Below, piece after piece: positions 2,809-63,186 of a stretch of DNA of 64,000 bases. This DNA comes from Pteria penguin (Eukaryota > Mollusca > Bivalvia > Pterioida > Pteriidae): the NCBI GenBank assembly GCA_035048485.1, contig CM068583.1:67692306-67756305 (forward strand), read 5' to 3'. The position numbers and the translations under genes are program-made. How positions within the stretch are numbered: position 1 is the first letter of the stretch; every line of letters begins with the position of its first letter. The notes below the pieces were generated by a model. The model was not told the DNA's origin, ran no database searches, and saw only the letters and a program-made list of their open reading frames with translations.

Positions 2809-5487
2809 CGGATTCATTTCACATATGTAATATCTTTTACGTCTACAGTTTTCCACCTTCCATTGGTATTTATAGCCCTCTGAGAATAGTACGCAGTCAT
2901 GATGAGGTCCTTTCAAATTAGGTCCATTCCCGAACCAGTCAAACCAATTACATTGCGTTTTACCGTAGTCCCAATACCAAGTATGAGTCTTGCTGAATAG
3001 AACATCATTTAAACCAAACCATGCTCCATCGTTCACTGGAAACAAAAACATTAAATAGCATATCTCCATACCAAGAACCCAAGCATAATTCAAATATGTT
3101 AACGTTTCCTGTTTATCAAGTTTTCGATTAAGAATGTAGCAATGTGCCATGATAACTGAGAACTGAATCCAAGGTACTTCTTACTTTTGTTTTTATTGCA
3201 CATCACTTTCAGATATGAATTTTCATGAGGTTCATTGACAACGGCGAGTATTCCACCCATATAGGAACACTTCATCTACAATATATACATAACACTTCAT
3301 AAGACATGGCATTTAATTAGCGATTGCAAGGTTCTTAAACAATGAACTAAGAGAATGTCACTTCATTTCTGTATTCACAATCAAACACTATTAGCAAGGA
3401 TTATGAGGAGAAATATGTACTTACAGAGGCATCATACCATGACAGTCTATCCCTACTGAAGTAGTAACAGCTGCCGTGATACTCGTCCCAGCCAAATGGG
3501 CAGAACTGTGTTAGCGGGCCTACATTGGCCACCTTCTTATAAACAGGACCTTTAGAACCATATTGTTTTTTAGATGGGAAGTATCCTTTCCCGTGTCCTA
3601 CTGTCTTATTTGGTCCTTGTATAATCTTTTTAGGCACAACAACGGTCTTAGGCACACCAATGGCCCTAGGTGGTGGTTTTGATATCTTTACTGGTTTGAT
3701 GGGACTTATTCCTAAAGCTGGCCCGGCCGGGCGTTGACTACCACCGAATGATAACCCTAAAGCAGGTGGTCCACCTGCTGTACCTGGACCGTATTGGACT
3801 CCTGGACCGTATGGACCACCTAAACCAACTGCCTGTGGACCTCCACTGCCAAGTATATCTCCACGTGGCTGTGCAACCTTGTAATAAGGATTATATGTTT
3901 CTGCTCGAACTTTATGCGCTAATGAGAAGGAAAAAGACAGATACATTCATATACATGTCCAGACTTTTGACATTCATGTGTCTTACCAAACCAATAAAGT
4001 ATTTGTATTGAACTTTAAGGTATCAGTACATACAACCATTACAATAAAGGCACTCTCATATCTATCATACAACCATTACAATAGAGACATTCTCATATCT
4101 ATCATACAACCATTACAATAAAGGCACTCTCATATCTATCATACAACCATTACAATAAAGGTTGATTGATTGATTTTTGTTTTACGTCACACCACGAATA
4201 TTTCACGTATACGGTGACGGCATCTGCCTGATGCGGGGCATACAAATTTTGACATTTGCAACGGACCCACCCGAAGCGGTGAGGGATCTTTAACGTGCAA
4301 TGCATACCACGACACGGGGCCTCGGTTTTACTGCCTCATCCGAAAGACAGGGCACCGGCATGACCAGAGCGGGATTCGAACCCCGGCCTCCCAATCAGGA
4401 GTCCGGCGCGATATCACTAGGCCACGCCGGCTTATTACAATAATGGTACTCTCATATCTATCATACAACCATTACAATAAAGACATACTTATATCTATCA
4501 TACAACCATTACAATAAAGGCACTTTCATATCTATCATACAACCATTACAATAAAAGTATTCTCATATCTATCATACAACCATTACAATAAAAGTATTCT
4601 CGTATTGATCATACAACCATTACAATAAAAGTATTCTCACATCTATCATACAACCATTACAATAAAAGTATTCTCATATCGATCATACAACCATTACAAT
4701 AAAGGCACTTTCATATCTATCATACAACCATTACAATAAAAGTATTCTCATATCGATCATACAACCATTACAATAAAGACACTTTCATATCTATCATACA
4801 ACCATTACAATAAAAGTATTCTCATATCTATCATACAACCATTACAATAGAGACATTCTCATATCGATCATACAACCATTACAATAAAAGTATTCTCATA
4901 TCTATCATACAACCATTACAATAAAAGTATTCTCATATCTATCATACAACCATTACAATAAAGGCACTTTCATATCTATCATACAACCATTACAATAAAA
5001 GTATTCTCATATTTATCATACAACCATTACAATAAAGGCACTTTCATATCTATCATACAACCATTACAATAAAGTATTCTCATATCTATCATACTCTCTA
5101 CTTCTCTACTCTCTATATCTAATACTTTTAAAACAAATATTGTCATATTAAACATTCAGCAATTCAATTAGACATATATACCAAAATCCATGTATAATGA
5201 ATTTGTGAGTAGTAAAGAAGCGAAATTTTACCATTCATCATAAAAAAATTACTAAATGATTATTATGAACAAAACTTTTACAATGCAAAGCTTAATATGA
5301 AACGATCGAATGCATGCGACACTGTTGGCTAAAATAATTCGATGACAAAAACATTTAAAATAAAATCTATCAAACATTGATGTCTAAAATTAATTTGAAA
5401 TGCGCATTCTAATTAATCAAAACATATAGAATACAAACCTTGAAAAACAAAAACTAAAAAGCAACTTATCGACAAAAGCAGTCTCAT
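2809..5487 (-). CDS. Gene 1: secreted C-type lectin-domain protein with Gly/Pro-rich N-terminal extension (exons 5487-5439, 3918-3425, 3275-3185, 3035-2809)
   Basis: Likely a secreted protein that binds carbohydrate or mineral. Exon 1 encodes a signal peptide starting MRLLLSISCFLVF. Exon 2 encodes a Gly/Pro-rich stretch (GGPYGPG, GPALG), a Lys/Pro stretch with VVVPKK, a GYFP linker and the CTLD start CPFGW. Exon 3 encodes MKCSYMGG...EPHENSYL. Exon 4 encodes WFGLND, WFDWFG, DCVLF, WKVENC and YYICE. All joins have GT/AG ends; exon coding lengths 49+494+91+227 give 287 codons with intron phases 1, 0, 1. Cysteines fit a long-form CTLD, but the usual EPN/QPD calcium motif reads GPN and the WND aspartate is absent, so calcium-dependent sugar binding is uncertain. 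The terminal exon after the Pro codon at 2809 was not found. The first intron holds a 37 bp minisatellite and a SINE. Gene 2 diverges from it about 800 bp away. Confidence 0.85.
4032..5092. repeat. 37 bp minisatellite in gene 1 intron 1
   Basis: About 20 units built on CATACAACCATTACAATAAA plus a variable half with ATTCTCATATCTAT or CACTTTCATATCTAT. It is interrupted by a SINE at 4161-4432. Unit variants alternate, which suggests unequal exchange. It lies wholly in the intron between exons 1 and 2. Confidence 0.9.
4161..4432 (-). mobile_element. tRNA-derived SINE inserted in the 37 bp minisatellite
   Basis: On the minus strand it begins with a tRNA-like head (A box TGGCCTAGTGAT, B box GGTTCGAATCC), continues through a body with GCATCAGGCAGATGCC, and ends in a TCAATCAATCAA tail. 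ATTACAATAA flanks both ends (4149-4158 and 4434-4443), consistent with a target-site duplication, although the same word also occurs in every minisatellite unit. The layout resembles the tRNA-headed SINEs described widely in molluscs. Confidence 0.8.
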
Positions 5488-6205
5488 CCTGGCCAGTTTA
5501 TCCTTTATGCAAGGAAACCTTATGATTTCATCTTTATACTTCATTAATATATTATTAGCATAAACAAGGCAAACACAAGTCATATGGTAACAAGGAAACA
5601 ATAAGCTCTGTAAAACATATGTTGTCGACGCTATTAAAGCGTCTTAAGATACGCAAAGGATTGCGCATTAAATCTCCCAAGTCGTATTCCTCGGCATTCT
5701 TGACATATGATACCTATACCTGAAGCCGATCAGAGACTATCCATTATGACAAAAACACTGTACTGATGTCATAATGACAAAATTTATTAAATCTAAATCT
5801 AAGATTAAAAGTTTATGTTGCTTCTAATTTTTTCCATACCATAAATTAAAGCAGAAAATTTAAAGTTTAAATACAGTGGCATAAACTCGTGTCAAAGCCA
5901 GATGGTCTGTGCCCTATTCACAATTAAATTAACAAATATCAATAGTTTAAAATTCATAAAAATAACAATTTTAAATAATATATAATTTATTTACACTTAA
6001 TCATTTACAACATATATCTAATCAAGTAATAAAAATCAGCATTTTCACTAAAAATTACATTACGTATCATTTAAAACTTTGCAGCATTTTGAAATAAATA
6101 AACGTCAAATGCGCAAGTGTGTCGTGTTTGTTTGTGACGTTTATGCTGCAGACGTTGAACAGAATATTGGATACAACGGATTAGCAGAGCCGGGATATAT
6201 TAATA
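5093..6205. other. Intergenic and intronic stretch around the gene 1/gene 2 head-to-head promoters
   Basis: Apart from gene 1 exon 1 (5439-5487) and its TATA-like motif, I see no gene, repeat or RNA here. The short reading frames at 5413-5601 and 6079-6342 are extensions of the two signal-peptide exons. About 800 bp separates the two start codons. Confidence 0.5.
5532..5538 (-). promoter_or_regulatory. Possible TATA box of gene 1
   Basis: Minus-strand TATAAAG about 50 nt upstream of the chosen ATG (5487). Genes 2, 3 and 4 have TATA-like motifs at closely similar distances (43-54 nt), which supports both the motif and the start codons. No experimental start site is available. Confidence 0.4.
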
Positions 6206-6289: not shown

Positions 6290-8009
6290 ATGGAGACGAT
6301 ATTTGGATTGGTTTTCACGGCACTGACCATACAATACGGTAAGATATGATACTAGAACGACCTGTTGATTTCTAAAATCACTTTATTTGGGTAACATTAA
6401 TCTAAAGGGAGTAACCAATACTGTACACTATCATATTCATGCAGGAATAGACCAAAATGCATTCCTTAACATCAGTCTTATTGTTATAAGCATCAATTCA
6501 TTTTCTATTAATGTTCTATTCATTTTCCTTATTCAAATGTAAATATATAGATAAAATACACAAACGTTATCTATTATTATACTCATAAGTATGTATGTTT
6601 TAAATCAGTGGTCGGCGCAGGCCTGGATTTGAGTAATATGGGATTGGTATTTGGAACGGGCCATCATAATAAAGCCAGTCAGCAACCCCAAAAGCAACCA
6701 GTCGGTTCCGTGTATCCTGGACCAAAGAAAGTCATTGGTCCTCCATATCCCAAATCGGGATTAAGCAAAGGAAAACCCGTCGGTCCAATACCCAAATCCA
6801 AAGTCAAATCCAAGGGTAAATCCAAGGAAAAGGGGAAACCCATACTGAGTTTACAGTCCATGATGTCCGACATTTCAAAATCGTTTCCAGGATTGTCCTC
6901 TGTAGGAGGTTTTGATGATTTCCTCAGCCCCGCAAGAAAAGGCGGATACAGTTCTAATCAATATAAAACTGGACCAAATGCATCACCTGGACATCCATAT
7001 TATCCGAAGCCTCCTATCAGTAAGGGGTCATACAATCCGATGCCACCAAGCGTTCCTTTATATCCAAACCCATCAGTGAAACCAGTGGAAAGCGTTCCAT
7101 TTTACCCAAAACCACAAGTGAAACCAGAGGACAGCGTTCCATTATATCCAAAACATCCGGTAAAACCAGTGCAAAACATCCCAGTTTATCGAAAACCTTC
7201 TGTAAAACCAGTGGAAAGCGTTCCACTTTATCCAAAACATCCAGAGAAATCTATAGGAAGTGTCCCGTTATATCCAAAACCTCCAATGGAACCAATAGGA
7301 AGTGTTCCATATTATCCACAAAAACCTGTAGGTCCAGTTTATCTCAAACCCCCGATAAAACCTATTCGAAAGAAACCATTCTATCCTAAACCACCGAAAA
7401 AAGTAGTTGTACCAAAGAAGGTTGGAGTGATACGCAACATTCCCAGTAGAAGTAACATCAGTAGGGGAGGGAAAGTCAGCGGAGAAATCAAACCCTATCA
7501 AGTCGGATATTTTCCTAAATATAAGCATCATAAACACGGGTACAAAGTCACATATAACACATTTCCTGCGGCGAAACTGGTTGCTTCTGTATGTCCATAT
7601 GGGTGGATACCCTATGCTGGAAGCTGCTATTTGTTCAGTAGAGAGCGACTGGATTGGTATACGGCGGAGGTATTTACTTCATAATTTAATTTTTATTCCA
7701 GTAATTTATTTACTTACATATAATTCCATTTCATTCAGTGGAATCTACAATGGATTTTCGTTACAACTAAGTAAAACATAAAGAGAGCAGTCTTATTCAG
7801 TCAGGAATATGACAGAATTTCACCACAGGACAAGCAATAAAGAAAACAGAAGACATCTGACAAAACTGTATAACACAAATCAACAAGGACATGCACACAA
7901 AACATGATAAAACATGGTGTGTGTGGGGGGTGGGGGGGGGGGGGTGGTTGTGTGTGTGTGTGGGGGGGGGGGGGGGTGGTTGTGTGTGTGTGTGTGTGGG
8001 GGGGGTGGT

Positions 8010-8065: not shown

Positions 8066-9050
8066 GTATTCTATTGTAAATTTGGTGCTTCAGACAAAAG
8101 AAGTTGACGAACTTTAACAAAGTACATGACCTTTTTATAATTCCAATAAAACCAAATACTGAATAGATAAATGAAATGGATATGTGTTCTGTCAAACGAA
8201 TATTTTTAATCTGTATTATTGATCCTCTAACTTATCCAATTATTATTGATAGAAACACCGCAAAATGTATTTCTTTTTAAAATAAATCATTTAGTATCAT
8301 ATATAAATATGAATTGTATCTTTTTTCTTGAATTATTCCTTAATCACTCTAAACTCGTGCGTAACGCTGTCCTTCGGTTGATTGTCTCAATTTTGTGTCA
8401 CGTTTTAAATCTGTTTTCAAACATCTATATATTATTAGAAGTCGCCCATCAGCATCACTGAAAAGACATAAATTGTCAAAATGCGCATCTGGTGCACAGA
8501 ATTGTAATGTGTATATGTTCTAATATCTATTATACTAACTAGGGTATCATAACTTTAATTTTGAGTGCTTTTGTTTTGACTTAAAATTTTCAGTCATGAA
8601 ATTTTGTAAATCACTTTAAAACCAAGGAGTATCTCCCTAATGCATATCTTAGTCTTAAGGTTGATTCTTTGGCTCAATTTTACGGCCACTCTCTTTTTAA
8701 TGTTGCTCTTCAAATGTTTATATGTTATTAGAATTCCAATCATTCGGCCTTGACCATCACTGAAGAGGAATAAGTTGTGGAAATGCGCATCTGGTGCACA
8801 AAATTATAACGAATATATGTTCTAATATTTTGTATCAAATCAATGATTACTTTCAGATGAAATGTCAATACATGGGAGGTAACCTTGTTGTTGTTGAATC
8901 CGCACATGAAAATGCTTTCTTAAAGAAGGTCATTGGCAAGTATGCGAGTAAGTATTGTTTTTCATATCGATACATGACACTGCTATATTGGAAGGGTTTA
9001 AAATATCATCATCACTTTTATCATCATCATCATGATCATGATGATGATCA

Positions 9051-9099: not shown

Positions 9100-9563
9100 T
9101 ATTATAATTTATATATACTTTTTCACGTTATTTGCGGGACTGACGTTTCCAGTTTAATTTTTGACTTCATAATAAATATTTGACTGCCTCTGACGTAAAT
9201 TCATAGGCCAATATCCGAAAATGTTTGTTATCGTTATTCCTTCAGTGGTTAAAATCAAACGTTAAAGTTTACATACAAGTGCGATTAGCTAAATATCGTC
9301 ATTTGATGTTATGGTGTTTTCTTCATTTATCCTCAGTGGCCCCTGGAGTGTGGATGGGTCTAAACGACGCATTGTTCCATAACAGCTATCAGTGGTACTG
9401 GGGATACGGGCACAAGCCATGTAAAACATTTGATTGGTTCGGCAAGGAACCTAACTACAAGGGATACAACCATCACTGTGCTATGTTCTGGTCCAGCTAC
9501 GGAAATAGATGGAAGGTATTCAACTGCTACAGAAAGATGTACTACGTCTGCGAGATTAATCCG
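6290..9563 (+). CDS. Gene 2: secreted C-type lectin-domain protein with Tyr/Lys/Pro repeat region (exons 6290-6338, 6609-7669, 8857-8947, 9337-9563)
   Basis: Exon 1 encodes the signal peptide METIFGLVFTALTIQY, then GT. Exon 2 opens after CAG with VGAGLDLSNMG, runs through a Lys/Pro/Ser-rich segment, seven 14-residue repeats (7049-7342, consensus SVPLYPKPPVKPVE), VVVPKK, a GYFP linker and CPYGW...CYLFSRERLDWY. Exon 3 encodes MKCQYMGGNLVVVESAHEN. Exon 4 encodes WMGLND, WFGKEPN, HCAMF, WKVFNC and YYVCEINP. Lengths 49+1061+91+227 sum to 476 codons, phases 1, 0, 1. KEPN resembles the EPN sugar-specificity motif of mannose-type lectins, but the WND Asp is missing. The Tyr/Lys/Pro repeats recall adhesive or matrix proteins, where Tyr may be modified; that role is inferred. 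Seven CTLD cysteines leave one unpaired. The terminal exon was not identified; the last donor lies in a triplicated 56 bp repeat. Confidence 0.87.
7049..7342 (+). repeat. Seven in-frame 42 bp repeats in gene 2 exon 2
   Basis: Units start at 7049, 7091, 7133, 7175, 7217, 7259 and 7301. Each encodes 14 residues of the form SVPxYPKxPxKPxx. Tyr and the Pro spacing are preserved while other positions vary, which suggests selection on the protein and not a very recent DNA expansion. Related degenerate units flank both sides (YYPKPP at about 6999, FYPKPP at about 7379). Confidence 0.85.
7915..8063. repeat. Compound poly-G / (TG)n / (GA)n simple repeat in gene 2 intron 2
   Basis: Alternating runs of G, GTGTGT and GAGAGA. 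Reading frames on both strands here (7797-8195, 7891-8117) are pure low complexity and are not genes. Confidence 0.9.
8451..8496 (+). ncRNA. Degenerate type I hammerhead ribozyme relic (first copy)
   Basis: Stem I strands GCATCA and TGGTGC can pair, stem II GACA/TGTC pairs, and a minimal stem III GCGC hairpin is present. The first core box reads CTGAAAA in place of CTGANGA and the second AAAA in place of GAAA, so it should be inactive. Confidence 0.5.
8753..8798 (+). ncRNA. Degenerate type I hammerhead ribozyme relic (second copy)
   Basis: Both core boxes are intact (CTGAAGA and GAAA) and ATC precedes the expected cut. Stem II is damaged (GGAA against TGTG), and stem I has lost the first G of GCATCA. 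Confidence 0.5.
8999..9105. repeat. (ATC)n/(ATT)n trinucleotide microsatellite
   Basis: CATCAT runs changing into a long ATT run, in gene 2 intron 3. The His/Asp/Tyr-rich reading frame across it (8794-9183) beyond exon 3 is an artefact. Confidence 0.9.
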
Positions 9564-9712
9564 GTAGGTGATAATGCGATTCGTAATTGTTTTAATGCTA
9601 TATCTGCGAGATTAATCCGGTAGGTGATAATGCGATTCGTAATTGTTTTAATGCTACGTCTGCGAGATTAATCCGGTAGGTGATAATGCGATTCGTAATT
9701 GTTTTAATGCTA
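9549..9712 (+). repeat. Three 56 bp tandem repeats that include the gene 2 exon 4 end and splice donor
   Basis: Units start at 9549, 9605 and 9661. Each begins TGCGAGATTAATCCGGTAGG, that is the codons for CEINP followed by the GT donor. Only the first unit is joined to the exon; the other two are decoy copies of the donor in the intron. Gene 3 shows the same arrangement with a different repeat (40949-41476). Confidence 0.9.
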
Positions 9713-9819
9713 CTTTAATCATCTCAATTACTAATATTTGTTTTATGCCACTTCAAGATAAGAGCATTTATATTGTGAAAGCACTCTATTGGCGTATTCT
9801 TCAAAAATTTGTCATATTT

Positions 9820-12055: not shown

Positions 12056-12422
12056 TTACTCGTAGTTTCTTCTTACTATTTTCTCTGATACTCTCAAATA
12101 TGTAATATTTTGGAGGTTGGAATACCAAGCGCCATTTCTCTGCCAAATGTCATAGATTTGCCTGATCTTATTGAAGTTTTCAACTATCGTTGTTGCTAAT
12201 GGTGTACTTGTGGAACAGTGAGACATCGCTAAATAATCTCAGTGTTGAAGATGGTTAAACTGAATCTCCAATGTCTTTAATATACATTAGATAACACAGT
12301 AGTCATATCACTTATCCCTGTGGAACGACGTATCATGATGGCTTGTTTCCACTTGCCTGTCTATTCTAACACGTTATTGGTGTTATAGAATCCATACTCT
12401 AATACATATAAATTCCTGTGTT

Positions 12423-14553
12423 TATTCCACCCAAGCAGCAATTTCTCAAAATTAAATTTATTAATAAAGGCTTCGATCTACTTAACATTTCTAATATTTT
12501 CCGTGATCATAGAGTCACATCTAAAATCCCCCAATATTTTGAGAATTTAGAACCACCACTTATTTGTTACCAGTACAAAAAGCCTATAAGAAATCTTATT
12601 CTAAATTATAATAAAGTTACATCTAACCCTGATGTTTCAGACTCTATTCCTTCGTCGTGTTCTTGTGATAAATCTAAATATGTTTATAAACCGGCAGGTC
12701 ATATTATTACTGGTGACCTAAACTGTATTTCGGACAAGAAATTGCGCACCCTTTTTGGAAAAGGACCTAAATATAGGTTACCGTCCAGGATAGATTTCAA
12801 TAAATGCCGTGACGTTATAGAAGATGCTTTAACTACATATTGTAAACGTTGGTGTAAAAAAGAACAGGTAAAGGTTCATGCTCTTAATGATTGGAAATAC
12901 GAGATTTTAAGAATTGTCGATATCCGTATAAAGAACTTTACGGAAAATCCGCATTTATTTCAACAGCCTAATACATTGACGGCAAATTCTATTAAAAAGA
13001 AGATAGCTGACTTACATGCTAAATATGTCTTTGTTCCTGCTGATAAAGCAGGTAATAACATAATAGTTGTTTGAAAACTATATTATATTGAAGTACTTAA
13101 AAACGAATTAAACTCCACTCAAACATATGTGGAAAGCCCTACCTCAAAAGACAGCACCTTGCACGATCACCTCATGACCATGTCCGACTTCAAAATTAAA
13201 ACTGATAAATCTGATCTACCAACCATATATTGGCTCCCAAAACTACATAAAAGTCCATATAAATCATGTTTCATATCTAATTCTAGCCACTGCTCTACTA
13301 CGGTACTATCGAAGCATATTACGTCTGCTCTAACTGCTATAAAAGATCATATTATCAAATATTGTGATGTCGCATTTCATAATAGTAACATCAATTACTT
13401 TTGGTCGATTAAAAATTCTCATGAAGTTATAGACAAACTTCTTTCGCTAAATTTCAAAGCGACTCAAATTTCTACATTTGATTTTTCTACACTTTATACA
13501 TCTCTGCCTCATGATTTGATTAAAAGCAAGTTGCTGTCTCTTATACAATGGTGTTTTCACAGAGAATCTAAAACGTACATATGTACTTCCAATAACTCCG
13601 GATTCTTTTCCAACAAACAATATACTTCATATAAATACTGGACTTGCAAGGAATTATGTAAAGCACTAGATTATCTCATGAATAATATTTTTGTGCAATT
13701 TGATGGCAAGATATATCAACAAATAGTTGGGATTCCTATGGGTACTAACTGCGCGCCTCTGATAGCAGATTTATTTCTTTATTGTTATGAGAGGGATTTT
13801 ATGGTTTCTATTAAAAAATCAAAACGTTTTGACCTCATTGACAAATTCAATAATACTTGTAGATATCTGGATGATATTTTGGTTATCGACAACCCTGAAT
13901 TCGAACAATTTATATCAGAAATTTATCCACCAGAGCTCACATTGAATAAAGCTAATACTTGAGATAAATCTACACCTTTCTTAGATTTAAACATCAAAAT
14001 TATCAACCACCTAATATATACTAATATTTATGATAAACGTGAGGATTTTGGATTTCCTATTGTAAATTTCCCTTACTTGGATGGCGATGTTCCTCGACTC
14101 CCATCATATGGTATCTATATATCTCAATTAGTTCGATTTGTCAGAGGCTGCACCGATGTTTTGGACTTTCATAAACGAAATTTACAAATTACTACTAAAC
14201 TTTTAACTCAGGGTTACAGATATCACAAGTTAAGAAAAACATTCGGCAAATTCTTCAGATCTTATTCAGAACTTCTATCTAAATTTGGAAATATTTCTTT
14301 TCAACAGTATGTATCCAATGGAATTTCCCATCCTTATTTTTACGGTGATCTCGTATATAAACTAAGGAAAGTAAAAGGCTCCGATAACGTTATTTTATCA
14401 TGTAATAAAATAATCAAACGTCTTATAAATAGACAATATGATATTGAGATCATCAAAAAGACTATAGGTCTTGTATTTGGCCCCTCTACAGCCTTATGCA
14501 GACTTTTACTTGAACGTTGCACGCTGACTAACAGGGCGGTGGGGACTATATGA
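12423..14553 (+). CDS. Naiad copy A: CxC linker plus reverse transcriptase, two in-frame UGA codons
   Basis: One frame runs from the 5' truncation to TGA at 14551-14553, crossed only by TGA at 13072-13074 and 13960-13962. The product has the CSC (CxC) motif that links the endonuclease and RT in permuted PLEs, RT motif A (FDFSTLYTSLPH), motif B (QIVGIPMGTNCAP), the catalytic YLDD and a thumb region. The first UGA lies where copy B has Cys (TFTCKKYY); the second matches a Thr/Ser-like site. Both occur at identical positions in copy C. Known: Naiads of clams and spiders have been reported to encode selenocysteine. Inferred: the UGAs are read as selenocysteine with help from the hairpin at 14526-14620. 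This copy has no endonuclease and so is not autonomous. Confidence 0.85.
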
Positions 14554-14620
14554 CGGGCCTTGTCCAAACCTCTTTCAGAGGAGACATGGTCCTGAACCTC
14601 GTCCCCTCTGACTGTTAGTC
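14526..14620 (+). promoter_or_regulatory. Type II SECIS-like element of Naiad copy A, overlapping the stop codon
   Basis: Outer stem GACTAACAG (14526-14534) with CTGTTAGTC (14612-14620); helix I GGGGAC (14541-14546) with GTCCCC (14601-14606); core ATGA (14550-14553) opposite TGA (14593-14595); helix II GGGCCTTGTC (14555-14564) with GACATGGTCC (14583-14592), nine of ten pairs; unpaired AAA (14566-14568); helix III CCTCT/AGAGG with a TTC loop. This is the full type II SECIS plan. The ATGA contains the terminal stop codon, and the outer stem is made from the last sense codons. Confidence 0.85.
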
Positions 14621-18424: not shown

Positions 18425-19111
18425 ATTCTACTTCGTATTTAGATATTATGTTGTCTTTCGACATTAATGGTCAATTGAACACCTCACTCTATGACAAACG
18501 TGACGATTTCAATTTCGCTATCACAAACTTTCCTTTCATAAGTAGCAACATTCCATCATCGCCCGCATACGGCGTATTCATATCTCAGTTAATACGTTAT
18601 TCCAGAGCATGTTCAAATTACAATGACTTTGTTCTGAGGGCTAGGCGACTTTCAGTTAAGCTGCTCAACCAGGGTTATATATGTGCTAGACTAGCATCGT
18701 CACTGACGAAGTTCTACGGTCGTTACGAGACTCTTATTACTCCATATGAATTCTCGTTATCCAGACTTTTAAATGATATTCTGGACTGAGACCGATTCCG
18801 ATCACTTTACACAGATTTGACACCTTCTATACTAGAAGGTTACCTACTTCGACTTCTCCATATATAGATACATATGGAATTCACACGATTTGACTCTTTC
18901 TACGGGGTATATGTGACGGGTGTTGCTAGCAAGCAGGAGATGCTCACTCTCCCCGGGCACCTGATCTCACTCCATCACAGGGGTTCACATATGCTCTTCA
19001 AGTAGACATATTTTGTTATTTTCCATTTGTTTTTCATTTTCACTGATTTTGTATGTCCTATGGTTTCATGATTTTTGGATTTGTGGTTTGGATTTATCCA
19101 TCATCTTTACA
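18425..19111 (+). repeat. Upstream 687 bp direct repeat (pseudo-LTR) of Naiad copy B
   Basis: Matches 21828-22514 at a constant offset of 3403 with only a handful of substitutions. It includes the last part of the RT frame (STSYLDIMLSFD to LLNDILD, 18397-18789) and the following untranslated DNA. A copy of the 3' end placed upstream of a full element is the pseudo-LTR layout typical of Penelope-like elements. Confidence 0.9.
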
Positions 19112-19192
19112 TTTCAACAACTGTCCATGTGTCACTGCTGGTGGACAATTTGTCCCCGAGGACACTTGTCGGGCAGTCCTTTATATATATAT

Positions 19193-22589: not shown

Positions 22590-23180
22590 ACAACCCAATG
22601 CAGACTTTTGCTTGAGCGTTGCCCACTGACTAACAGGGCGGTAGGGACTCTATGATGGGCCTTGTCTAAACCTTTTCAGAGGAGACAATGTCCTGATCCT
22701 CGTCCCCTCTGACTGTTAGTCGGGACTCCTATTGATCAAGGATCTAAGCTAGGAATACAGACGGGCAGAGCACGGTTACATCATGTTGATGTCGCTCTAC
22801 ATATTTGATAGCAACATATTATTCTATAAATTTTTCGTGTGTAATAGAATTTTATTACCTCACTTCTTGAGAGACCTGTTGATCCTTGTTTTCTATATGC
22901 AGGATTATTTATAAATTCTTAAATGTGTGTCTTTTGATTGTGCTGCTTTTGCGCAGAGTGGGAAGTTTGGCGCCCGTAAACCGGTTAACCACACCAACTG
23001 AATGACGTTTGATATTTCAACTGACCGTCCTACGTCGGTATCGTAACCGCAGCCATTCAAATATTTTCGTAATGCCGTTTTCGGTGTATATTCTATTATT
23101 ATCATGTTTGTTTGCATGACCGTGGTGATTTTTGTCATACAGCTTCGGCAGATGTCTTCAGTTTTCTCTTTGATAATCTA
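22590..23180 (+). mobile_element. Naiad 3' fragment of the A/C lineage
   Basis: Begins within the last codons (CRLLLERC-like), then carries the SECIS-like hairpin and the 3' UTR with ACCGTCCTACGTCGGTA. It is noticeably diverged from A and C, so it is a separate older insertion next to copy B. TTTGATAATCTAAA occurs on both sides (about 22532 and 23167), possibly a duplicated flank. Confidence 0.8.
22628..22721 (+). promoter_or_regulatory. SECIS-like hairpin with paired changes relative to copies A and C
   Basis: Outer stem GACTAACAG (22628-22636) with CTGTTAGTC (22713-22721); core ATGA (22652-22655) opposite TGA (22694-22696); AAA at 22668-22670. The helix II 3' strand is GACAATGTCC in place of GACATGGTCC: one mismatch of copy A is repaired while a neighbouring pair is lost, so the stem keeps nine of ten pairs. 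Conservation of all core elements in a diverged copy supports function. Confidence 0.75.
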
Positions 23181-25345: not shown

Positions 25346-25711
25346 AGCTGCCATATACCCCTGTCCCCTCCAGGGGGAATTTTCGAGGGTATATTTTTCT
25401 GAAAGCTTATTAAAAATGCTACAAAATGAGCCATGTTTGCACTCTGGCCGTTGGGGCTTTACTGCGTTATGGGGCAAAAACATAAGATTTTTATGAAAAA
25501 TCGCTGAAAATTGGAAATTTTGAATAAAATGTAAACAACTCGATAAATTAAAAAAAAAACACCATGTAATCTGATAGATCTTGTAAAAAGGTTCCCCGTG
25601 TCTGGGTGTTTCAAGAGTTATTATTCACCCAATAGTTACTGACTTGGTTGTGTGGGAGTTTTCCCCAGGGTTTGTATATCCTTATCCCCCCCCCCCCCCC
25701 TTTTCATTAAA

Positions 25712-37090: not shown

Positions 37091-37091
37091 C

Positions 37092-37145: not shown

Positions 37146-40100
37146 ATGTTCGTTTTGTTCGCTTTAAGTCATATTATTGCCAGTGGTAAGTCATATTACA
37201 TATTCATGCATTGTTTTCAGATGATGACTTTTGTTTAAGATGCATTACTTCATTCCATGTATTTCATCACTAATATTGTAAATAATACTATACGTAATAC
37301 TTTGCGATGCCGTAAGTGAATTTTCACACTGATATTGCTACTGATAAATTCAATTTGTACATCGATAATCTAAATTATCTCAACGTCAATTTCTATATTG
37401 TGCTGACGCGATGTAATCGAACACAATAGCCAGAGTACAAGCTCCGCCCAGTATGGTACATCCGCCACTGTAGCGCCCGTACATAACAACCAGTGTATAA
37501 TCTCCGCCCTGTATGATATATCCGCCACTGTAGCGTCAGTACACAACAACCAGTGTACCAGCTCCGCCCAGTATGGTACATCCGCCACTGTAGCGTCCGT
37601 ACATAACAACCAGTGTACAATCTCCGCCCTGTATGATATATCCGCCACTGTAGCGTCCGTACAAAACAACCAGTGTACCAGCTCCGCCCAGTACAGTACA
37701 TCCGCAACTGTAGCGTCCGTACACAACAACCAGTGTACAAGCCCCGCCCAATATGATATATCCGCCACTGTAGCGTCCGTACATAACCAATGTACAAGCT
37801 CAACCCGATATGGTACATCCCGGTCATCCGCCACTGTAGCGTTCGTACATAACAAGCAGTGTACAAGCTCCGCCCAGTATGGTACATCCGTCAGTGCAGC
37901 GTCCGTACATAACACCAAAGTAGAAGCTCCGCCCGGTATTGAACATTCGTCACTGTATCGTCCGTACATAACAACCAGTCTACAATATTCGCCCAGTATG
38001 GTACATCCGCCACTGTAGCGTCCGTACATAACAACCAGTCTACAATATCCGCCCAGTATGGTACATCCGCCACCGTGGCGTCCGTACATAACAACCAGTG
38101 TACAATATCTGCCCAGTATGGTACATCCACTACTGTACAATTTCCATCCAGTATGATACATCCCCCACTGTAGCGTCCGTATATAATAACAATAGGAATG
38201 CCACCAGTGTAGCGTCCATAAGGATAGGAATGCAGCTACTGTGGTGTCAATAGGGATAGAAATGCCACCAGTGTAGCGTCCATGGGGATATGCATATCGC
38301 CTCTAACGTCCATAGGGAAAGGAATGCCGCCACTGTAGTGTCTATGGCGATAGGAATGGCGTCACTGTAGTGTCCATGGGGATAAGAATGCCGCCACTGT
38401 AACGTCCATGGGGATAGGAGTGCCGCAATTGTAGTGTCCATGGCGATAGGAATACCGCCACTGTAGTGTCCATGGGAATAGGAATGCCGCCATTGTAGTG
38501 CCCATGGCGATATGAATGCCGCCACTGTAGCGTCCATGGGGATAAGAATGCCGCCACTGTAACGTCCATGGGGATATGAGTGCCGCAATTGTAGTGTCCA
38601 TGGCGATAGGAATGCCGCCACTGTAGTGTCCATGACGATAGGAATACCGCCGCTGTAGTGTCAATGGCGATAGGAATACCGCCGCTGTAGTGTCCATGGG
38701 AATAGGAATGCCGCCATTGTAGTGCCCATGGCGATGGGAATGCCGCCACTGTAGCGTCCATGGGGATATGTATGCCGCCACTGTGGTGTACATGGGATTC
38801 GGAATGCTCCCAATGCAGCGTCCATGGGATAGGAATGCCGCTACTGTACTGTCCATGGGGATAGGAATGCCGCTTCTTTGCTGTTCATGGGAAGAGGAAT
38901 GCCGCTACAGTACTGTTCATGGGGATAGGAATGCTCCCAATGTAGAGTACGTCCGATAGGAATGCCGCTTCTGTACTGTCCATTGGAATAGGAATGCCGC
39001 TACAGTACTGTCCATGGGGATAGGAATGATCGATAGGAATGCCTCCACAGTAGTGTTCATGGGGACAGGAGTGCCACTGTCCAGTATAATCCGTTGAAAG
39101 AACTATATTGATAATTTAATTGTATATATGATTAGATAGTAATGCACAGTTATGGTCATTTGTAATTTATGACTTATAGAAAGTCATCTACAGATATGTA
39201 CCGTTGTCAAGGAACGTTGTCAGCCAATGATCGGCAGACTGCAAATTAAAATTCAGTAAATGTGAATGATAACATTAAAAAAGTAAAATACATGTAAACA
39301 TGTGTATGAATTTTCATACACTGCTTTCTATCGGGAGTTCGTTCATTTTTTTTTTTATTTTCTATTTTACTAGTATTCTGTAACGATTATGGCGGTCAGT
39401 CTGGTGCTGGTGGAAAACAACCGCTTCCTTACGGTGGCTCTAATCTAAGAGGAGAGAAAAGGGGTGGTGGACATGCGTATGGTGGTATCGGTAAACCTCT
39501 ATCTGACCTCCATCTTGGCAGTAGTAGTGGGATGACAGGAACTGGTGCTTTTAAACCCTCAGGATCTGGTCATGGCTATTTCCCTAGTGGAAATAACCCG
39601 TATGGCAATATACCCCGTGTATATAACCGTGTAGCTGACGTCGCTCCATTGGCTTCCTCTACTGGATGTCCGCATGGTTATATGTCATATGGCAGTAATT
39701 GCTACCTCTTCAGTCGGGAGAAGCTGACCTGGTTTCATGCTGCTGTAAGTAGATCTACTACCACGTACGTTTCTGACATGGTATGCTTTGATAAGATGGT
39801 ATTGTGATTTATATCCTATATATACTTCAGATGAAGTGCGAGTATATGGGAGGCTACCTTGCTGTTGCTAACTCCGCCCATGAGAATAGCTACTTCAAAC
39901 TGATGTCCGCTAAGCTTTCAAGTAAGTTCATACGATATCATAAAATTAATGTAAAACATGCGTCTCATGTAGACGAGTACAATTTTATGTACGTTATATA
40001 TCCGGTTCTAGTTTTTATTACAATTGATATTAATGAGAAAGAAATGCATTAAAATATACTGAAGATTGCAAAAAAAGTGTATATACCTCGTATTGTAATG

Positions 40101-40969
40101 TAAATGCCAAAAAAATTCTCCGAATACGCAAATACATGTAGTTCAGTTGTTTTGTTTATAAGTAACATATAAGATATAATGACAATAACAGTTTGTGTAT
40201 GGACATTAAGGTTAGTAAACTGTGACATTCCGTATTTATAGTAATGGAATACTACATTGTCCTGTTCTGCAGGATAAACTTGATATCTATTATAAATAAC
40301 GAAAGAATGTGAATAGAAGATTGACCGGTAGCGAAACAAATTCTGCAAAGTCCACCAAAAAATAGGAAATAGTTCAGCCATACGGCCCAAATCTTATTCC
40401 TCCTAGAGTTTGCTGACAATGATACGTTTGTATGTAGATGTTTAGTAAGTCCTATCTTTTTATATATCGTCATTTCGTAAAAATCGTAGTAATCTAGAGA
40501 AGTCATCGTACATTCAATGTCGAAAATCGGTCAGTCGAAACTCGGACGTAGCTTTAACATCTTCGATGCGAACCCATGACAAATGAAAACCATCTGATGC
40601 TGACGGAATTTTGTGAAACATTGGGTCGTAGCCAGCTGTCGGAAATTGAAACTGACACAGTCTTATATGGATTTAAACACATTCTATATATAAAAAAATC
40701 TGACTACAATTTGATTGCATACTTTTTTTTCTGTTTAAGTGACCAAAGGTGTATGGCTTGGATTAAATGACATGCTATTCCCTCGAACACACCAGTGGAA
40801 CTGGGGCTATAGTAAGAAGCAATGCCAGTGGTTTGACTGGGGACCTAAGGAACCAGTATTCGCAGGAAGTGGAATTCGAAACTGCGTATTAATGTGGGAT
40901 AGCTACGACTACTGTTGGAAAGTAGATAACTGTAATGCTCGTCACTACTATATCTGCGAATATAATCCG
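37146..40969 (+). CDS. Gene 3: secreted C-type lectin-domain protein with short Gly-rich extension (exons 37146-37185, 39374-39744, 39831-39921, 40740-40969)
   Basis: Exon 1 encodes the signal peptide MFVLFALSHIIAS before GTAAGT. Exon 2 opens after TAG with VFCNDYGGQSGAGG, continues Gly-rich (GGSNLRGEKRGGGH), then GHGYFPSGNN, VYNRVADVAPL and CPHGY...CYLFSREKLTWFHAA. Exon 3 encodes MKCEYMGGYLAVANSAHEN. Exon 4 encodes VWLGLND, WNWGYSKKQC, WGPKEPV, NCVLM, WKVDNC and YYICEYNP. Lengths 40+371+91+230 give 244 codons with phases 1, 0, 1. WKVDNC keeps a WxxDNC-like calcium-site residue, while EPN reads EPV. The first intron (2.2 kb) holds the 60 bp and 32 bp minisatellites. The last donor sits in a 76 bp repeat. 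The role is unknown; it looks like the minimal member of the cluster. The terminal exon was not found. Confidence 0.85.
37400..38180. repeat. 60 bp minisatellite in gene 3 intron 1
   Basis: About 13 units containing CAGTATGGTACATCCGCCAC, TGTAGCGTCCGTACATAACA and ACCAGTGTACAAGCTCCGCC. The period is a multiple of three, so long frames appear on the minus strand (37370-38161); they are not gene-like. Confidence 0.92.
38180..39085. repeat. 32 bp minisatellite in gene 3 intron 1
   Basis: About 28 units with GATAGGAATGCCGCCACTGT and AGTGTCCATGG. The period was measured as 32 bp. It abuts the 60 bp array, shares the short CGCCACTGTAG core with it and may derive from it. Confidence 0.92.
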
Positions 40970-43835: not shown

Positions 43836-44627
43836 TGTTTTGGTTATATTTATAACTTGACTCGGCCTCTTCCGGTTGAAATGCCTGTGAATTTATAAAT
43901 CCAATTTTCCACGTATTTAAGTTAAACTATTCTTGTATTATCCTTCGAATCCCTACTTCCACTTTGTTTATCACATAGCACCCGCGCTTTACAGGTATGC
44001 TATGTACAGTACTAGTATCCACACAGCTCAGTCACTCCAACACTCCGCTAATGGTCCAAATTTAGATCAAAGGTCTACTGGTAATTTATGGAGTGGGGTT
44101 TTCCGTAAATTACCCATAGGTCAGTTGGTTTCCTACATCCTGTTTACATTCATGTGTATACATTTACATGTGTTAATTTTCGTTTAATTCTTGCTCAACA
44201 TGTTATAATATATATACACATTTCTGTGGGCTTATTGTGATATTCTTCACCCATCTTCTTTGTAATAGCTATAACCAAGTTTTGGACATTCCGATGTAGG
44301 ATGTATTTTTTGTGTTTAATATTAGTTTTTCTTCTGTTTATGTTATGTCCTTCCATCTACACAGACAACTTTTTGATATTTTTCATTTTTCTTTATTTTC
44401 AATTTTCGAATATTCTTCATCGGTGAGCTGTATCCTGTGTCATGTTACAATTATTTGAACTACTCTTCGTTGACAACCCACCTTCCTCCGTACCTTCTCT
44501 CATCTATATCGACAATTTCATGAGTCTATATTGACATAGAGACGTACAGAGCGAGGGTGGGGCGTTGCTGTGCCGGCACACATTGTAAAAAAAAACCCAT
44601 ATTCAATTTAGTTTACATCCTCTATTA
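43836..44627. other. Spacer between LINE ORF1 and ORF2
   Basis: No coding similarity recognised apart from a short open frame (43933-44187). It belongs to the LINE insertion. Confidence 0.4.
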
Positions 44628-45170
44628 TTGTTTGTGTCACCAGTACTGATGTCACTTACCTTGAATAGTCAAACTTGTAATATAAATAACATGTGTAATT
44701 ATTTCCAATCAGTTGCATCGATCGTGTATATCTTGGTACGTCTCACGAATACCAGTTCATACATCGTGAGATACATTGTTCTAATTCTTTTGCTTTCAGG
44801 GGATATTGAGTCCAATCCTGGACCTCATGATTTAAGTAATGTACATATTTGTCTATTTGTCATCTACAATGTAAATGTTCAAAGTGTATTAACTAAACTC
44901 GATTTGTTAGCTGTTGAGCTGGGCAAATTTGATATTATTACTGTAAGTGAAACCTGGCTCGATCAGACTATCAAATCGTGTGATTTGATTCTACCCTCAT
45001 ACCAACTTCCCATCCGTCTCGATCGCAATAGGCTTGGAGGGGGCGTGACTGTCTTCGTAAAAAATGGTATCTCATTTACAGAACGGCAAGATTTAACCAT
45101 TCCCAGCCTTGAGGCAGTTTGGATCGAAGTAAACATTGACCACAAGCGAGTTTTAATAGTGACTTTTTAG
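44628..45170 (+). CDS. LINE ORF2 N-terminus: 2A-like motif and apurinic endonuclease domain (truncated)
   Basis: Opens with about 57 residues containing a hydrophobic stretch (YIVLILLLS), then GDIESNPGP (44799-44825), which matches the DxExNPGP consensus at which 2A peptides cause ribosome skipping. An endonuclease start follows: NVNVQSVLTKLDLL, ITVSETWLDQ, RLGGGVTVFVKNG and LEAVWIEV. The frame ends at TAG 45168-45170, after which related sequence (RPKFRDWNTVE, LGDFNENLF) continues. 2A-like motifs are known at the N-terminus of some APE-type LINE ORF2 proteins. The RT core is missing by deletion. Confidence 0.75.
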   Translation: MFVSPVLMSLTLNSQTCNINNMCNYFQSVASIVYILVRLTNTSSYIVRYIVLILLLSGDIESNPGPHDLSNVHICLFVIYNVNVQSVLTKLDLLAVELGKFDIITVSETWLDQTIKSCDLILPSYQLPIRLDRNRLGGGVTVFVKNGISFTERQDLTIPSLEAVWIEVNIDHKRVLIVTF

Positions 45171-59180: not shown

Positions 59181-59181
59181 C

Positions 59182-59229: not shown

Positions 59230-62200
59230 ATGAGACTGTTAGCAGCGGCTCTAGCAACACTGCTGGCTCTTAGTGGTACGTAGAGATAAAAACATCTACT
59301 GGCTCTTAATGCTACATGTAGATACGTATACACCTCCATACATCTCTGTCGTCACCAAACGTTTTTTGTACATTTACATACTTTTACAATAACTTTATAA
59401 CTTTGAACTGTTGATATTTGAAACAAAATGCACGTATGAGTGTAAATTATATTCACTTCTCTTTTGTTCTGATTTCAGTTTTAAAAAAGTCTCTTGTTAC
59501 TTCTAAAAGTTCAACTACATGTAGATCATGGTTGTAGGACTGTGAATTAAAATTTTGATATAACTTAAGTTCAAGGTGCCGAGTACGGCAACAAACATGA
59601 CTCTGGGAATGATGACATAGACCTGTTCCGAGGACTTCAGTTTGGAGGATCACTCAAAGCAGACGGAAGTATAAAGGGAAAATATGGCTCTAGTGGTCAC
59701 GGAAGATCAGGTGGACATAGTGGATCCATCAGTGGTAGCACTAGCTCTGTTGGAAATAGTGCTGGCTACAGATCAGGCAGCAATGGTGGATTTACTAGTG
59801 TAGGTGGATCTAGTGGCGAAAGCAGTGGAATAAGTAAAGCCGCTGGAGGATACAAAGCATCAATTGCTGGATTATTAGGAGAAAGCCACGTTGTAGACGG
59901 AAGATCAAAGGGAATACTTGTTGGAAGCAGTGCAGGTTACAAACCAAGTGGCCATGGTGGATCTCGTAATAGATCGGGTGGACGTAGTGGATCTAGTAGT
60001 GGTAGCAGGTCAGGAAGTGGCGCTGGTGGATATGGAGGAACAATTGATGCTGGATTATTAGGTTTAAGCAGTGGTAGTGGGTCTATTGGAAAAAGTGCAA
60101 GCCACGTAACAGGCAGCCAAGGTGGATCCAGTGGCGGATCAGGTACACGTGGTGGATCTAGTGGTGGTACTACTCAAGGAAGTGGTACTGGGGGATATGG
60201 CGGAGCAATTGATGCTGGATTATTAGGAGTCAGCAGCGGTAGTGGGTCTGCTGGAAGCAGTGCTAGCCACGGATCAGGGAGCCAAGGTGGATCCAGTGGC
60301 GGAGCAGGTGTATATGGTGGATCTAGTAGTGGTACTACTCAAGGAAGTGGTGCTGGGGGATATGGCGGAGCAATTGATGCTGGATTATTAGGAGTCAGCA
60401 GCGGTAGTGGGTCTGCTGGAAGCAGTGCTAGCCACGGATCAGGAAGCCAAGGTGGATCCAGTGGCGGAGCAGGTGTATATGGTGTATCTAGTAGTGGTAC
60501 TACTCAAGGAAGTGGTGCTGGGGGGTATGGCGGAGCAATTGATGCTGGATTATTAGGAGTAAGCAGTGGTAGTGGGTCTGTTGGAAAAAGTGCTAGCTAT
60601 GAAATCGGCAGTCATGGTAGATCCAGTGGCGGATCAGGTGCACATGGTGGATCTAGTGGTGGTAGCAGTGTAGGAAGTGGTGCTGGAGGATGGGGCGGAG
60701 CAATTGATGCTGGGTTATTAGGAGTCAGCGGTGGTAGTGGGTCTGCGAGAAAAAGTGCTAGCTACGGATCAGGAAGCCATGACGGATCCAGTGGCGGATC
60801 AAGTGTACATGGTGGATCTAGTGGAGGTAGTAGTGTAGGAAGTGGTACTGGCGGATATGGCGGAGCAATCGATGCTGGATTATTAAAAGTAAGCAGTGGT
60901 AGTGGGTCTGCTGAAAAAAGTACTAAATACGGATCAGGCAGCCATGATGAATCCAATGGCGGATTAGGTGCACATGGTGGACCTAGTGGTGGTAGCGGTC
61001 TAGGAAAGGTTGCTGGGGGATATGGTGGAGCAGTTGGTGCTGGATTATTAGGAGTAAGCAGTGGTAGTGGGTCTGCTGGAAAAAGTGCTAGCTACGGAAG
61101 CGGCAGTCATGGTGGATCCAGTGGCGGATCAGGTGCACATAGTGGTGGTAGCAGTGTAGGAAGTGCTGGAGGATATGGCGGAGCAATTGATACTGGATTA
61201 TTAGGAGTCAGCAGCGGTAGTGGGTCTGTTGGAAGCAGTGCTAGCTATGGATCAGTCAGCCATGGTGGATCCAGTGACGGATCAGGTGCACATGGTGGAT
61301 CTAGTGGTGGTACTACTCAAGGAAGTGGTACTGGGGGATATGGCGGAGCAATTGGTGCTGGATCATTAGGAGTAAGCAGTGGTAGTGGGTCTGCTGGAAA
61401 AAGTGCTAGTTACGGATCATTCAGCCATGGTGGATCCAGTGGCGGATCAGGTGCACATGGTGGATCTAGAGATAGTAGTATAGGAATAATTGGCGCTGAT
61501 GGATACGGCGGAGCAATTGATGCTGGATTATTAGGAGTAAGCGGTGGCAGTGGGTCTGCTGGAAAAAGTGCTGCTAGCTACGGATCAGTCAGCCATGGTG
61601 GATCCAGTAGTGGATCAATTGTACATGGTAGATCTAGTGAAGTTAGCAGTGTAGGAAGTGGTGCTGGGGTATATGGCGGAGCAATTGATGCTGGATTATT
61701 AGGAGTAAGCAGTGGTAGTGGGTCTGTTGGGAAAAGTGCTAGCTACGGATCCGGCAGTCATGGTGGATCCATTGGCGGATCAGGAGCACAAGGTGAATCT
61801 AGTGGTGGCAGCAGTGGAAGGAGTAGCACTGGGGGATATGGCGGAGAAATTGCTGATGGATTATTAGGAGTAAGCAGTGGCACTGGGTCCGCCGGAAAAA
61901 GTACTAGCTACAGACCAGGCAGTAATGACGCAGGATATGGAGAGTTGATTGTAGACTCTTCGAGAACGAGAGATAATAGTGAATCTGCAGGTTATGGCAA
62001 TGGTGACAATAGTTATGATGGAGTCATAGATCGAGATGACGATTATGACGGTGATGATGATTATAACGATGACAATGGCGATGACGGAGATGATAGTTAT
62101 ATATCTGGCAGTAGCAAAGGCTTAGTCGGTGGTAGCAGCGGAGATGGTCGTGCCAATAGCAAAGTTGCCAGAAAATCAAATATCAAATCCAGCAAATCTA

Positions 62201-63186
62201 TTGGTGGAATTAGTGACATGAAACGGGGCAGCAATACCGGGAAAATCTCACATAGGGAGTCTAGCACTAGGACTACAGGTAACACCATGTCAATGTCAAA
62301 CAGTGTAGACAAAGCAAAGAAAGGAAGTGGGAGCTCTAAAAAGGTTCGTACCGAATCCTCCTCGACAAAAACAGCAACCGCTTCTGTAAATCCTAAAGGA
62401 AAACTGAGAGGTGACGATAGTCCTAGTAGTGGTCTGTCAAATCTCTCTGGTCATAGTGGACCAGGGACCGGATACTTCCCACATGCTTTCTCCGGCACAT
62501 TTCCGGGACATTCCTTCAGTTATGCTGCCGGATACAGACAACATTATACAAAGGTGGCCAACGTGAACCCCCGACCACTAACCACAGGATGCCCTTACGG
62601 ATGGCAGTCTTACAACGGACACTGTTACTGGTTCAGCAGAGACAAGATGAAATGGTTCCATGCTTCAGTAAGTATATGCTATTGTCTGTATATATAAATA
62701 GTGTAGATGAAAGGATCATATATGTAAATATATCTGAACGATAAAACACATCCAAACAGTGAACCGGCATGGCTCATTCGGTAAGGTCCTGGGTTCGAGC
62801 CTTGCCGGTGTCAAACTGGTGTCCTGACACGCTGGTGTCCTGGCACACTGTTGTCCTGACACTGGTGTATTGTCCTACGGACGAGGCAGTACAAACCGAG
62901 GTCCAAATGTCATCAGGGTAGGCCTACGTGGCACGTAAAAAGATCCCTCACTACTTCGAGTGGGTTTGTTGCAAATAAAATCTACGCATTGCATCAGGCC
63001 GTCCTCGTACAAGCGTAATGATTTTGGAATGACGTAATACAACATTTTGAAAAGTACCATACCAAACACTTTTAGGAATATGATGCCTGTTTCAGATGAA
63101 ATGCCGATACATGGGAGGATATCTCACAGTGACCGACTCTCCTCATGAAATCGCATACCTCAAGAAAATCTCCCAAAAGTATACAT
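59230..63186 (+). CDS. Gene 4: silk-like Gly/Ser-repeat, Asp-rich, C-type lectin-domain secreted protein (exons 59230-59275, 59576-62667, 63096-63186; 3' end beyond window)
   Basis: Exon 1 encodes the signal peptide MRLLAAALATLLALS, ending in phase 1 at GTACGT. Exon 2 opens after CAAG with GAEYGNKHDSGNDD and stays open for 3,092 nt: I read every codon from 59581 to 61945 and found no stop and almost no Met, which is why a start-codon-based search misses most of it. It encodes twelve 55-residue Gly/Ser repeats (60031 on), an acidic block (DRDDDYDGDDDYNDDNGDDG at about 62029-62090), a Ser/Lys/Thr-rich basic stretch, GTGYFPH, KVANVNP and CPYGW...CYWFSRDKMKWFHAS. Exon 3 encodes MKCRYMGGYLTVTDSPHE. 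Exons 1 and 2 sum to 1,046 codons. The fourth, CTLD-completing exon lies past the window. The design suggests a silk-like structural matrix protein with mineral- or metal-binding acidic segment and a lectin anchor; that function is inferred. Confidence 0.88.
60031..61944 (+). repeat. Twelve 165 bp in-frame repeats encoding 55-residue silk-like units
   Basis: Units begin at a Tyr/Trp codon at 60031, 60196, 60361, 60526, 60691, 60856, 61021, 61174, 61339, 61504, 61672 and 61837. Spacing is 165 bp except one unit of 153 and one of 168. Each starts YGGAIDAGLLGVSSGSGS, followed by a Gly/Ser/His-rich stretch with ASYGSGSHGG and SGGSGAHGG. All length changes are multiples of three, so the frame is kept. 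The AIDAGLLG block is the one recurrent hydrophobic segment, as in block-copolymer silks. Confidence 0.9.
62755..63055 (+). mobile_element. tRNA-derived SINE in gene 4 intron 2
   Basis: Head with TGGCTCATTCGGTAAGG and GGTTCGAGCC (A and B boxes, shortened spacing), a local triplication of TGGTGTCCTGACAC, then the family body (ACCGAGGTCC, AGATCCCTCACT, GCATTGCATCAGGC) and TGACGTAATACAA at the end. Plus orientation, same as the gene. Confidence 0.75.

Follow-up and report, generated by a model that had tools for sequence, protein, structure and literature searches.

A cluster of C-type lectin-like domain genes with divergent polymer-like chains in the bivalve Pteria penguin and its probable relation to the byssal protein apfp-1

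A 64,000-nucleotide (nt) stretch of the Pteria penguin genome (assembly GCA_035048485.1; contig CM068583.1, here called C4; C4:67692306-67756305; hereafter the window) holds four genes, A to D, each of which joins a low-complexity chain of its own length and composition to a C-type lectin-like domain (CTLD). We interpret this locus, at a probability of roughly 0.72, as a cluster of genes for byssal (foot-gland) proteins of the apfp-1 family, in which one lectin cap is set on different polymers. Apfp-1 of Atrina pectinata is described in the excerpted text of PMC4912638 as a purified protein of the byssus cuticle that contains 3,4-dihydroxyphenylalanine (DOPA). By this account, a signal peptide opens the protein and a CTLD forms its C-terminal end, with Tyr/Pro/Lys repeats and a Gly-rich block, in which nine of 55 residues are Tyr, in between; the protein is reported to adhere to mannan, more so with Ca2+. 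Based on sequence, membership of the P. penguin genes in the apfp-1 family is very probable, and a byssal role for them is probable.

Gene plan of the cluster and its members across the genome

The four genes in the window have a common exon plan, with A on the minus strand and B, C and D on the plus strand. Exon 1, as judged by inspection, is a short hydrophobic leader in A, B and D, and C has a candidate for it that was chosen from among a few. The introns of the models are GT-AG and have phases 1-0-1. TATA-like boxes stand ahead of exon 1 in A, B and D, and only an AATAAA at 37094 was seen upstream of exon 1 of C. The features of the cluster are listed below in window coordinates.

5439..5487, minus strand: gene A exon 1, putative signal peptide MRLLLSISCFLVFVFQ, phase 1 end; TATA-like TATAAAG at 5532-5538
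3425..3918, minus strand: gene A exon 2, 110-residue Gly/Pro-rich chain, GYFP linker and CTLD start
3185..3275, minus strand: gene A exon 3, CTLD middle, 91 nt
2809..3035, minus strand: gene A exon 4, 227 nt, CTLD end ...YYICEMNP, then donor GTAAGT
6290..6338, plus strand: gene B exon 1, putative signal peptide; TATA-like TATAAATA at 6247
6609..7669, plus strand: gene B exon 2, 298-residue Pro/Lys/Tyr chain with 14-residue repeats of the type SVPLYPKPxVKPVE, GYFP linker, CTLD start
8857..8947, plus strand: gene B exon 3, 91 nt
9337..9563, plus strand: gene B exon 4, 227 nt, EPN motif retained
37146..37185, plus strand: gene C exon 1, candidate, MFVLFALSHIIAS, phase 1 donor GTAAGT
39374..39744, plus strand: gene C exon 2, 66-residue Gly-rich chain, GYFP linker and CTLD start
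39831..39921, plus strand: gene C exon 3, 91 nt
40740..40969, plus strand: gene C exon 4, 230 nt
59230..59275, plus strand: gene D exon 1, putative signal peptide MRLLAAALATLLALS; TATAAAA at 59182
59576..62667, plus strand: gene D exon 2, 964-residue Gly/Ser silk-like chain (12 repeats of about 55 residues, Asp-rich run, basic stretch), GYFP linker, CTLD start
63096..63186, plus strand: gene D exon 3, 91 nt
75293-75516, plus strand, beyond the window: gene D exon 4, 224 nt
93028-94262, 94629-94719 and 94892-95115, beyond the window: gene E exons 2, 3 (91 nt) and 4

The outer limits of the cluster, at the end of exon 4 of A (2809) and the end of exon 3 of D (63186), are those given in the initial annotation, whose four-gene cluster was borne out in its coordinates, its 91-nt exon 3 (4/4 genes) and its phases. 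The exon 4 length of 227-230 nt given there applies to A, B and C; the exon 4 that the model required for D was found 11 kb past the window, in the correct phase, and is shorter at 224 nt. Gene D is 1,151 residues long up to the end of this exon. In a Pfam scan of whole proteins, which covered A, B and C, Lectin_C (PF00059) was the sole family, at 51.9, 53.3 and 42.8 bits (cut-off 22.6) and with E-values spanning 9.5e-11 to 5.1e-14.

The window contains, on both strands together, 57 open phase-0 segments of 91 nt between an AG and a GT, and exactly four of these start with ATGAA[AG]TG, namely the exon 3s of A to D. Over 28 residues, exon 3 of B, C and D is 57-68% identical to that of A. Searches by tblastn with the peptides of the exon 2 tail, exon 3 and exon 4 found the genes of the cluster, and all other matches had E of 0.7 or more. 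For the shared exon 2 tail and CTLD, the six A-D pairs had 48-55% protein identity and 0.41-0.47 non-synonymous substitutions per site (dN); synonymous divergence (dS) was computable for two of the six pairs, at 3.6 and 4.2. These comparisons took in 157-160 codons among A, B and C and 83-87 codons for the pairs with D, where exon 4 was not included. The CTLD frame has been kept under strong purifying selection.

Downstream of exon 4 in A, B and C there was no notable common peptide, apart from the ends of exon 4 that recur as duplicates in B and C. In these two genes, minisatellites at 9542-9713 (B, 56 nt x 3) and 40946-41477 (C, 76 nt x 7) duplicate the end of exon 4 together with its splice donor, and none of this kind was seen after exon 4 of A. 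Because the intronic portions of the repeat units differ between B and C, this spot appears to have undergone two independent duplications.

Gene E, the fifth gene, follows the same plan beyond the window; for its exon 1 there were only candidates, none of them convincing. No further members were found in the 200 kb leftward of the window or in the last 10 kb examined rightward. Across the 838-Mb genome, for which all our counts are lower bounds, exon 4 of C gave at least 18 matches: genes A to E and three more, F, G and H, at 44-99% identity, a divergent ninth gene, I, at 38%, and nine others at 35% or below. Genes F (C4:27.95 Mb), I (C4:38.20 Mb), H (C4:38.24 Mb) and G (C4:38.25 Mb) lie on the same contig as the cluster. 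The tail of exon 2 of A gave at least nine matches; eight were genes A to H again, and the remaining one was a short stretch on a different contig, C8 (58% over 26 residues). The eight clear genes recovered by both exon queries all lie on a single contig. The 91-nt length of exon 3 holds in 9/9 genes A to I, and exon 4 of A to H measures 227, 227, 230, 224, 224, 227, 227 and 227 nt, respectively. The description of different structural-looking chains on a secretion-plus-CTLD frame, first made for four genes, extends to these eight.

Relation of the CTLDs to apfp-1

As a query for apfp-1 we used 26 CTLD residues overlapped from a tryptic and an antibody peptide printed in PMC4912638: GLNDVLFPKSHKWFWGYGKKQCKWFD. 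Genes A, B and C are identical to it at 19, 17 and 19 of the 26 residues (65-73%), and over the same residues they match one another at 14, 17 and 15 positions. Because A, B and C match this stretch about as well as, or better than, they match one another, the comparison, which covers 26 residues only, fits a placement of apfp-1 within their family. The initial annotation knew of no described family with this combination of features; apfp-1, with its matching CTLD peptide, has this architecture.

The alignment scores of the apfp-1 peptide were 132 for C, 126 for A, 108 for B, 84 for D and 75 for E. The corresponding scores in 8/8 control loci, taken from the best-scoring Lectin_C matches in the same genome, were 26-42. 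A search of the genome with the peptide at E up to 0.001 returned six matches, and 6/6 were family members (G, C, F, A, H and B, at 65-73% identity). The same query, which is short, had no match in PDB at E up to 10. In addition, an extra Cys within a KQCKWFD segment is common to apfp-1 and the P. penguin genes and is invariant in 8/8 clear members.

Outside the CTLD, Tyr/Pro/Lys repeats ahead of the lectin domain, as in apfp-1, are present in form in B and H and were not seen in A, C and D. A Gly-rich block bearing Tyr is clear in H, though there repeats intervene between it and the CTLD.

Variable chains of exon 2

The chain before GYFP measures 66 residues in C, 110 in A, 298 in B, 353 in E and 964 in D. 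The wide spread in the initial annotation therefore stands, with measured limits of 66 (C) and 964 (D) in place of about 80 and about 1,000 residues. The chain of B is composed of Pro, Lys, Ser and Val with 18 Tyr and has 14-residue SVPLYPKP-type repeats, and that of E is composed of Pro, Lys, Ser and Thr with QSYEP repeats and 16 Tyr in its 353 residues. Gly (30%) and Ser (25%) dominate the chain of D, in which twelve repeats of 51-56 residues, carrying GGYGGAIDAGLLGVSSGSGS, are followed by an Asp-rich run, DDDYDGDDDYNDDNGDDGDD, and a basic stretch. Nine of the 11 spacings of these repeats are 55 residues, and the other two are 51 and 56; all are whole codons. Tyr counts in the Gly-rich chains are 5/110 in A, 3/66 in C and 33/964 in D.

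Among the genes outside the cluster, G has a chain of about 160 residues without obvious repeats. The chain of H (C4:38.235-38.241 Mb; loci L036 and L038) runs to about 450 residues, in which a Gly-Tyr-rich block and many YPK-type repeats are followed by another Gly-Tyr block and further repeats, before GYFP and the CTLD. One of its Gly-Tyr blocks has 64 residues with 11 Tyr; the YPK-type (KYPK) repeats number in the dozens, and 54 YP motifs were counted within 357 residues. Its composition suggests that H may be a mussel-glue-like protein. In F, stops lie between the Gly-rich frame and the frame of the CTLD (locus L034, 3149-3359), and this gene may have a separate chain exon or be broken. 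The linker reads GYIP instead of GYFP in F and was not seen in G and I. In the divergent gene I (C4:38.199-38.202 Mb; locus L037), a long chain with repeats of the HVIPEP type shares one frame with the start of the CTLD.

The initial annotation spoke of interchangeable exons, a description that was not borne out: chain, GYFP linker and first part of the CTLD form a single exon in A to E, and chain and CTLD start lie in a single open frame in G, H and I. The tandem pair G and H, 10 kb apart, have CTLDs that are 72% identical (FastTree support 0.999), and their chains do not align above chance, with 91/300 shuffles scoring as good. Similarly, D and E are 60% identical and 163/300 shuffles were as good as their chain alignment. 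Because G and H, and likewise D and E, share CTLDs and have chains that cannot be aligned, we read the chains as having diverged because repeats inside exon 2 were lost and renewed, and not through an exchange of exons, although we infer this mode of turnover. Gene conversion of the CTLD portion is an alternative to it.

Of the chain alignments among A to D, that of A and B was weak (4/200 shuffles as good) and the other five pairs had 41-131/200 shuffles as good. Elsewhere, the values were 2/300 for B-E, 5/300 for A-H, 30/300 for A-F and 39/300 for B-H, and the scores of B-E and A-H perhaps reflect a common Pro/Lys-rich linker. A common N-terminal chain motif was considered and rejected, as in each of the 21 pairs formed by the first 60 residues of A to G (with H left out) more than 10 of 500 shuffles scored as good.

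Tandem arrays, counted over 51 overlapping rows that take in the coding repeats of B and D, make up 29.4% of the window, and the intergenic ones reach kilobase size with units of 37 to 72 nt. The window also contains three Penelope-type elements, at 12412-14553, 18965-22192 and 25643-28864, in which a GIY-YIG-like stretch before a reverse-transcriptase-like stretch was recognized by eye. Their frames are broken almost only by TGA, which accounts for 3/3 stops in the element at 12412-14553 and 6/7 in that at 25643-28864 (the last stop included in both); the element at 18965-22192 has only a final TGA. At or after the 3' ends are Rfam SECIS_1 matches above the gathering threshold (14542-14605, 22644-22706, 28853-28916 and 30223-30286), with three identical copies. 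This arrangement suggests that the elements may be selenocysteine-coding retrotransposons; elements of this kind, named Naiad, are reportedly present in clams and spiders. At 44589-45170 there is an open frame resembling the endonuclease part of a non-LTR (long terminal repeat) element, with DIESNPGP near its start, which we take to resemble 2A-like peptides.

Proposed role, alternatives and known systems

If the cluster encodes byssal proteins of the apfp-1 family, each gene would give rise to a secreted two-part protein, presumably expressed in the foot, in which a low-complexity chain is followed by a GYFP-linked C-terminal CTLD. The chain, rich in Gly, Pro, Lys, Tyr or Ser, would be the cohesive or load-bearing part, and the CTLD would anchor it to glycans of mucus, of the cell surface or of adjoining glycoproteins, as measured for apfp-1. 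The family would have arisen by old duplications in which the CTLD frame was conserved, and the chain would have been altered as tandem repeats within exon 2 expanded, disappeared or gave way to others. On this view, the present paralogues comprise the silk-like D, the Tyr-Pro-Lys proteins B and H, the Gly/Pro or Gly-rich A and C and the QSYEP-type E. In B and H, Tyr may be converted to DOPA; D could adopt a beta-rich packing; and the conserved extra Cys might allow cross-links.

More tentatively, we speculate that chain replacement in one exon may have fitted a single lectin anchor to chemically different load-bearing polymers, which could give the cuticle, core and tissue interface of the byssus a sugar-anchored polymer each. 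D would then be a lectin-capped silk-like thread protein and a possible component of "sea silk"-type threads. The two-part architecture itself was already described in 2016. In the excerpts of the open-licence PubMed Central literature that we consulted, no description of the cluster, its exon plan or a silk-like member turned up.

Several findings weigh against a byssal apfp-1 family. The comparison with apfp-1 is with 26 printed CTLD residues, not the full sequence, and its tryptic peptide YELKPGVW is too short to discriminate (best window score 28, reversed control 34). D, the silk-like gene, and E are absent from the six genomic matches of the 26 residues and have lower scores. When a repeat peptide of apfp-1 was compared with the chains of A to D, H being left out of this test, 201, 85, 87 and 57 of 500 shuffles were as good. 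The order of blocks in H differs from that in apfp-1, as a second Gly-Tyr block leads the chain of H and repeats come after the later block. A terminal exon beyond ...CExNP was not found, and all models are without a last exon. EPN and WND motifs characterize C-type lectins with Ca2+-dependent binding of mannose. Because EPN was found only in B and F (2/8 clear members) and WND in none (0/8), such binding is not predicted from sequence for most members, and this argues against a simple mannose model. Finally, CTLDs 44-48% identical to that of apfp-1 are also present in oyster genes that the excerpted account of PMC6337334 relates to perlucin.

This last point bears on the view that the genes encode shell-matrix or ligament proteins of the perlucin type, whose CTLD would bind chitin or calcium carbonate and whose Gly/Ser, silk-like and Asp-rich parts would template mineral. 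The Asp-rich run and silk-like chain of D are in keeping with this view, CTLDs are known in shell proteomes (e.g., one in Tridacna) and a 2025 review assigns C-type lectins (CTLs) a role in biomineralization. Sea-urchin spicule-matrix proteins, as outlined in part of PMC2527298, also combine a CTLD with Pro/Gly repeats and have some clustered genes. We nevertheless consider it unlikely, and shell matrix a less likely location than byssus, since the closest match is to a DOPA protein purified from byssus and gene H is a Tyr-Pro-Lys/Gly-Tyr protein.

It is quite improbable that these are secreted immune or mucosal lectins with an N-terminal low-complexity tail that serves solubility or mucus binding. 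Bivalve CTLD genes are numerous and usually read as immune: Lectin_C matched at 150/150 of the places scored, out of 477 candidate places in this genome, and 154 C-type lectins are given for Mytilisepta in the excerpt available. However, the exon 4 search sets the family apart from the rest, with a drop from 44-99% identity to one gene at 38% and then to 35% or below, and long low-complexity chains together with an extra conserved Cys common with apfp-1 are at odds with such a role. An even less probable explanation is that the variable part is mostly neutral minisatellite growth in exon 2, tolerated since only the CTLD matters. The abundance of tandem arrays in the window would agree with this, as would the little amino-acid constraint in the repeat units of D (nine of 11 measured, 36 pairs, mean dN 0.17 and dS 0.21). 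Yet the spacing of these units shifts by whole codons only, H retains two repeat types across about 450 residues, and the chain compositions appear to resemble those of known structural proteins.

The byssal apfp-1 reading would place apfp-1, treated as a single protein in the excerpted literature, in the company of a gene family whose exon frame is fixed and whose polymer segment changes fast. Genes A to H, the silk-like one included, are a direct candidate list of byssal proteins. The pairs G/H and D/E, with common CTLDs and different chains, offer a natural experiment in chain replacement with the anchor kept.

Like apfp-1, the genes encode a repetitive chain and a matching C-terminal CTLD that includes the extra Cys, preceded in A, B and D, and in C by a candidate, by a hydrophobic leader that may be a signal peptide, and H also has the Gly-rich Tyr-bearing block, Tyr-Pro-Lys repeats and CTLD. 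Unlike apfp-1, genes A, C, D, E and G are without a Tyr-Lys-Pro chain, and D is about three times longer and silk-like. The Tyr/Pro/Lys tandem repeats of B and H are like those of mussel foot proteins of the mfp-1 type; the lectin domain distinguishes apfp-1 from mfp-1, according to the excerpted PMC4912638. The sea-urchin proteins SM50 and SM30, compared by description only (PMC2527298, in part), are alike in having one CTLD, Pro/Gly-rich repeats and some clustered genes, and differ in belonging to another phylum and, in one predicted protein, in having the repeats after the CTLD.

Among bivalves, an excerpt of PMC7971044 on Perna viridis counts nine lectin-like genes in a set of 81 that are highly expressed in the foot; some of the nine lie in tandem, which by this description is a point of likeness with the P. 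penguin locus. A 2025 review (PMC12842671, in part) records other CTLs as abundant at the byssus-tissue interface of Atrina. In Crassostrea gigas, the CTLD genes CGI_10006917, CGI_10006919 to CGI_10006922 and CGI_10010615 are 44-48% identical to apfp-1 in the CTLD, and five of the six are nearly consecutive in number; the excerpted text of PMC6337334 presents them as possible adhesive genes of settling larvae and has their likeness to apfp-1 stem from the CTLD. Set beside A to H by description only, the oyster genes have in common an apfp-1-related CTLD and near-consecutive placement. Because these oyster genes are related to apfp-1 to this extent, the apfp-1-like CTLD subfamily is wider than pen shells.

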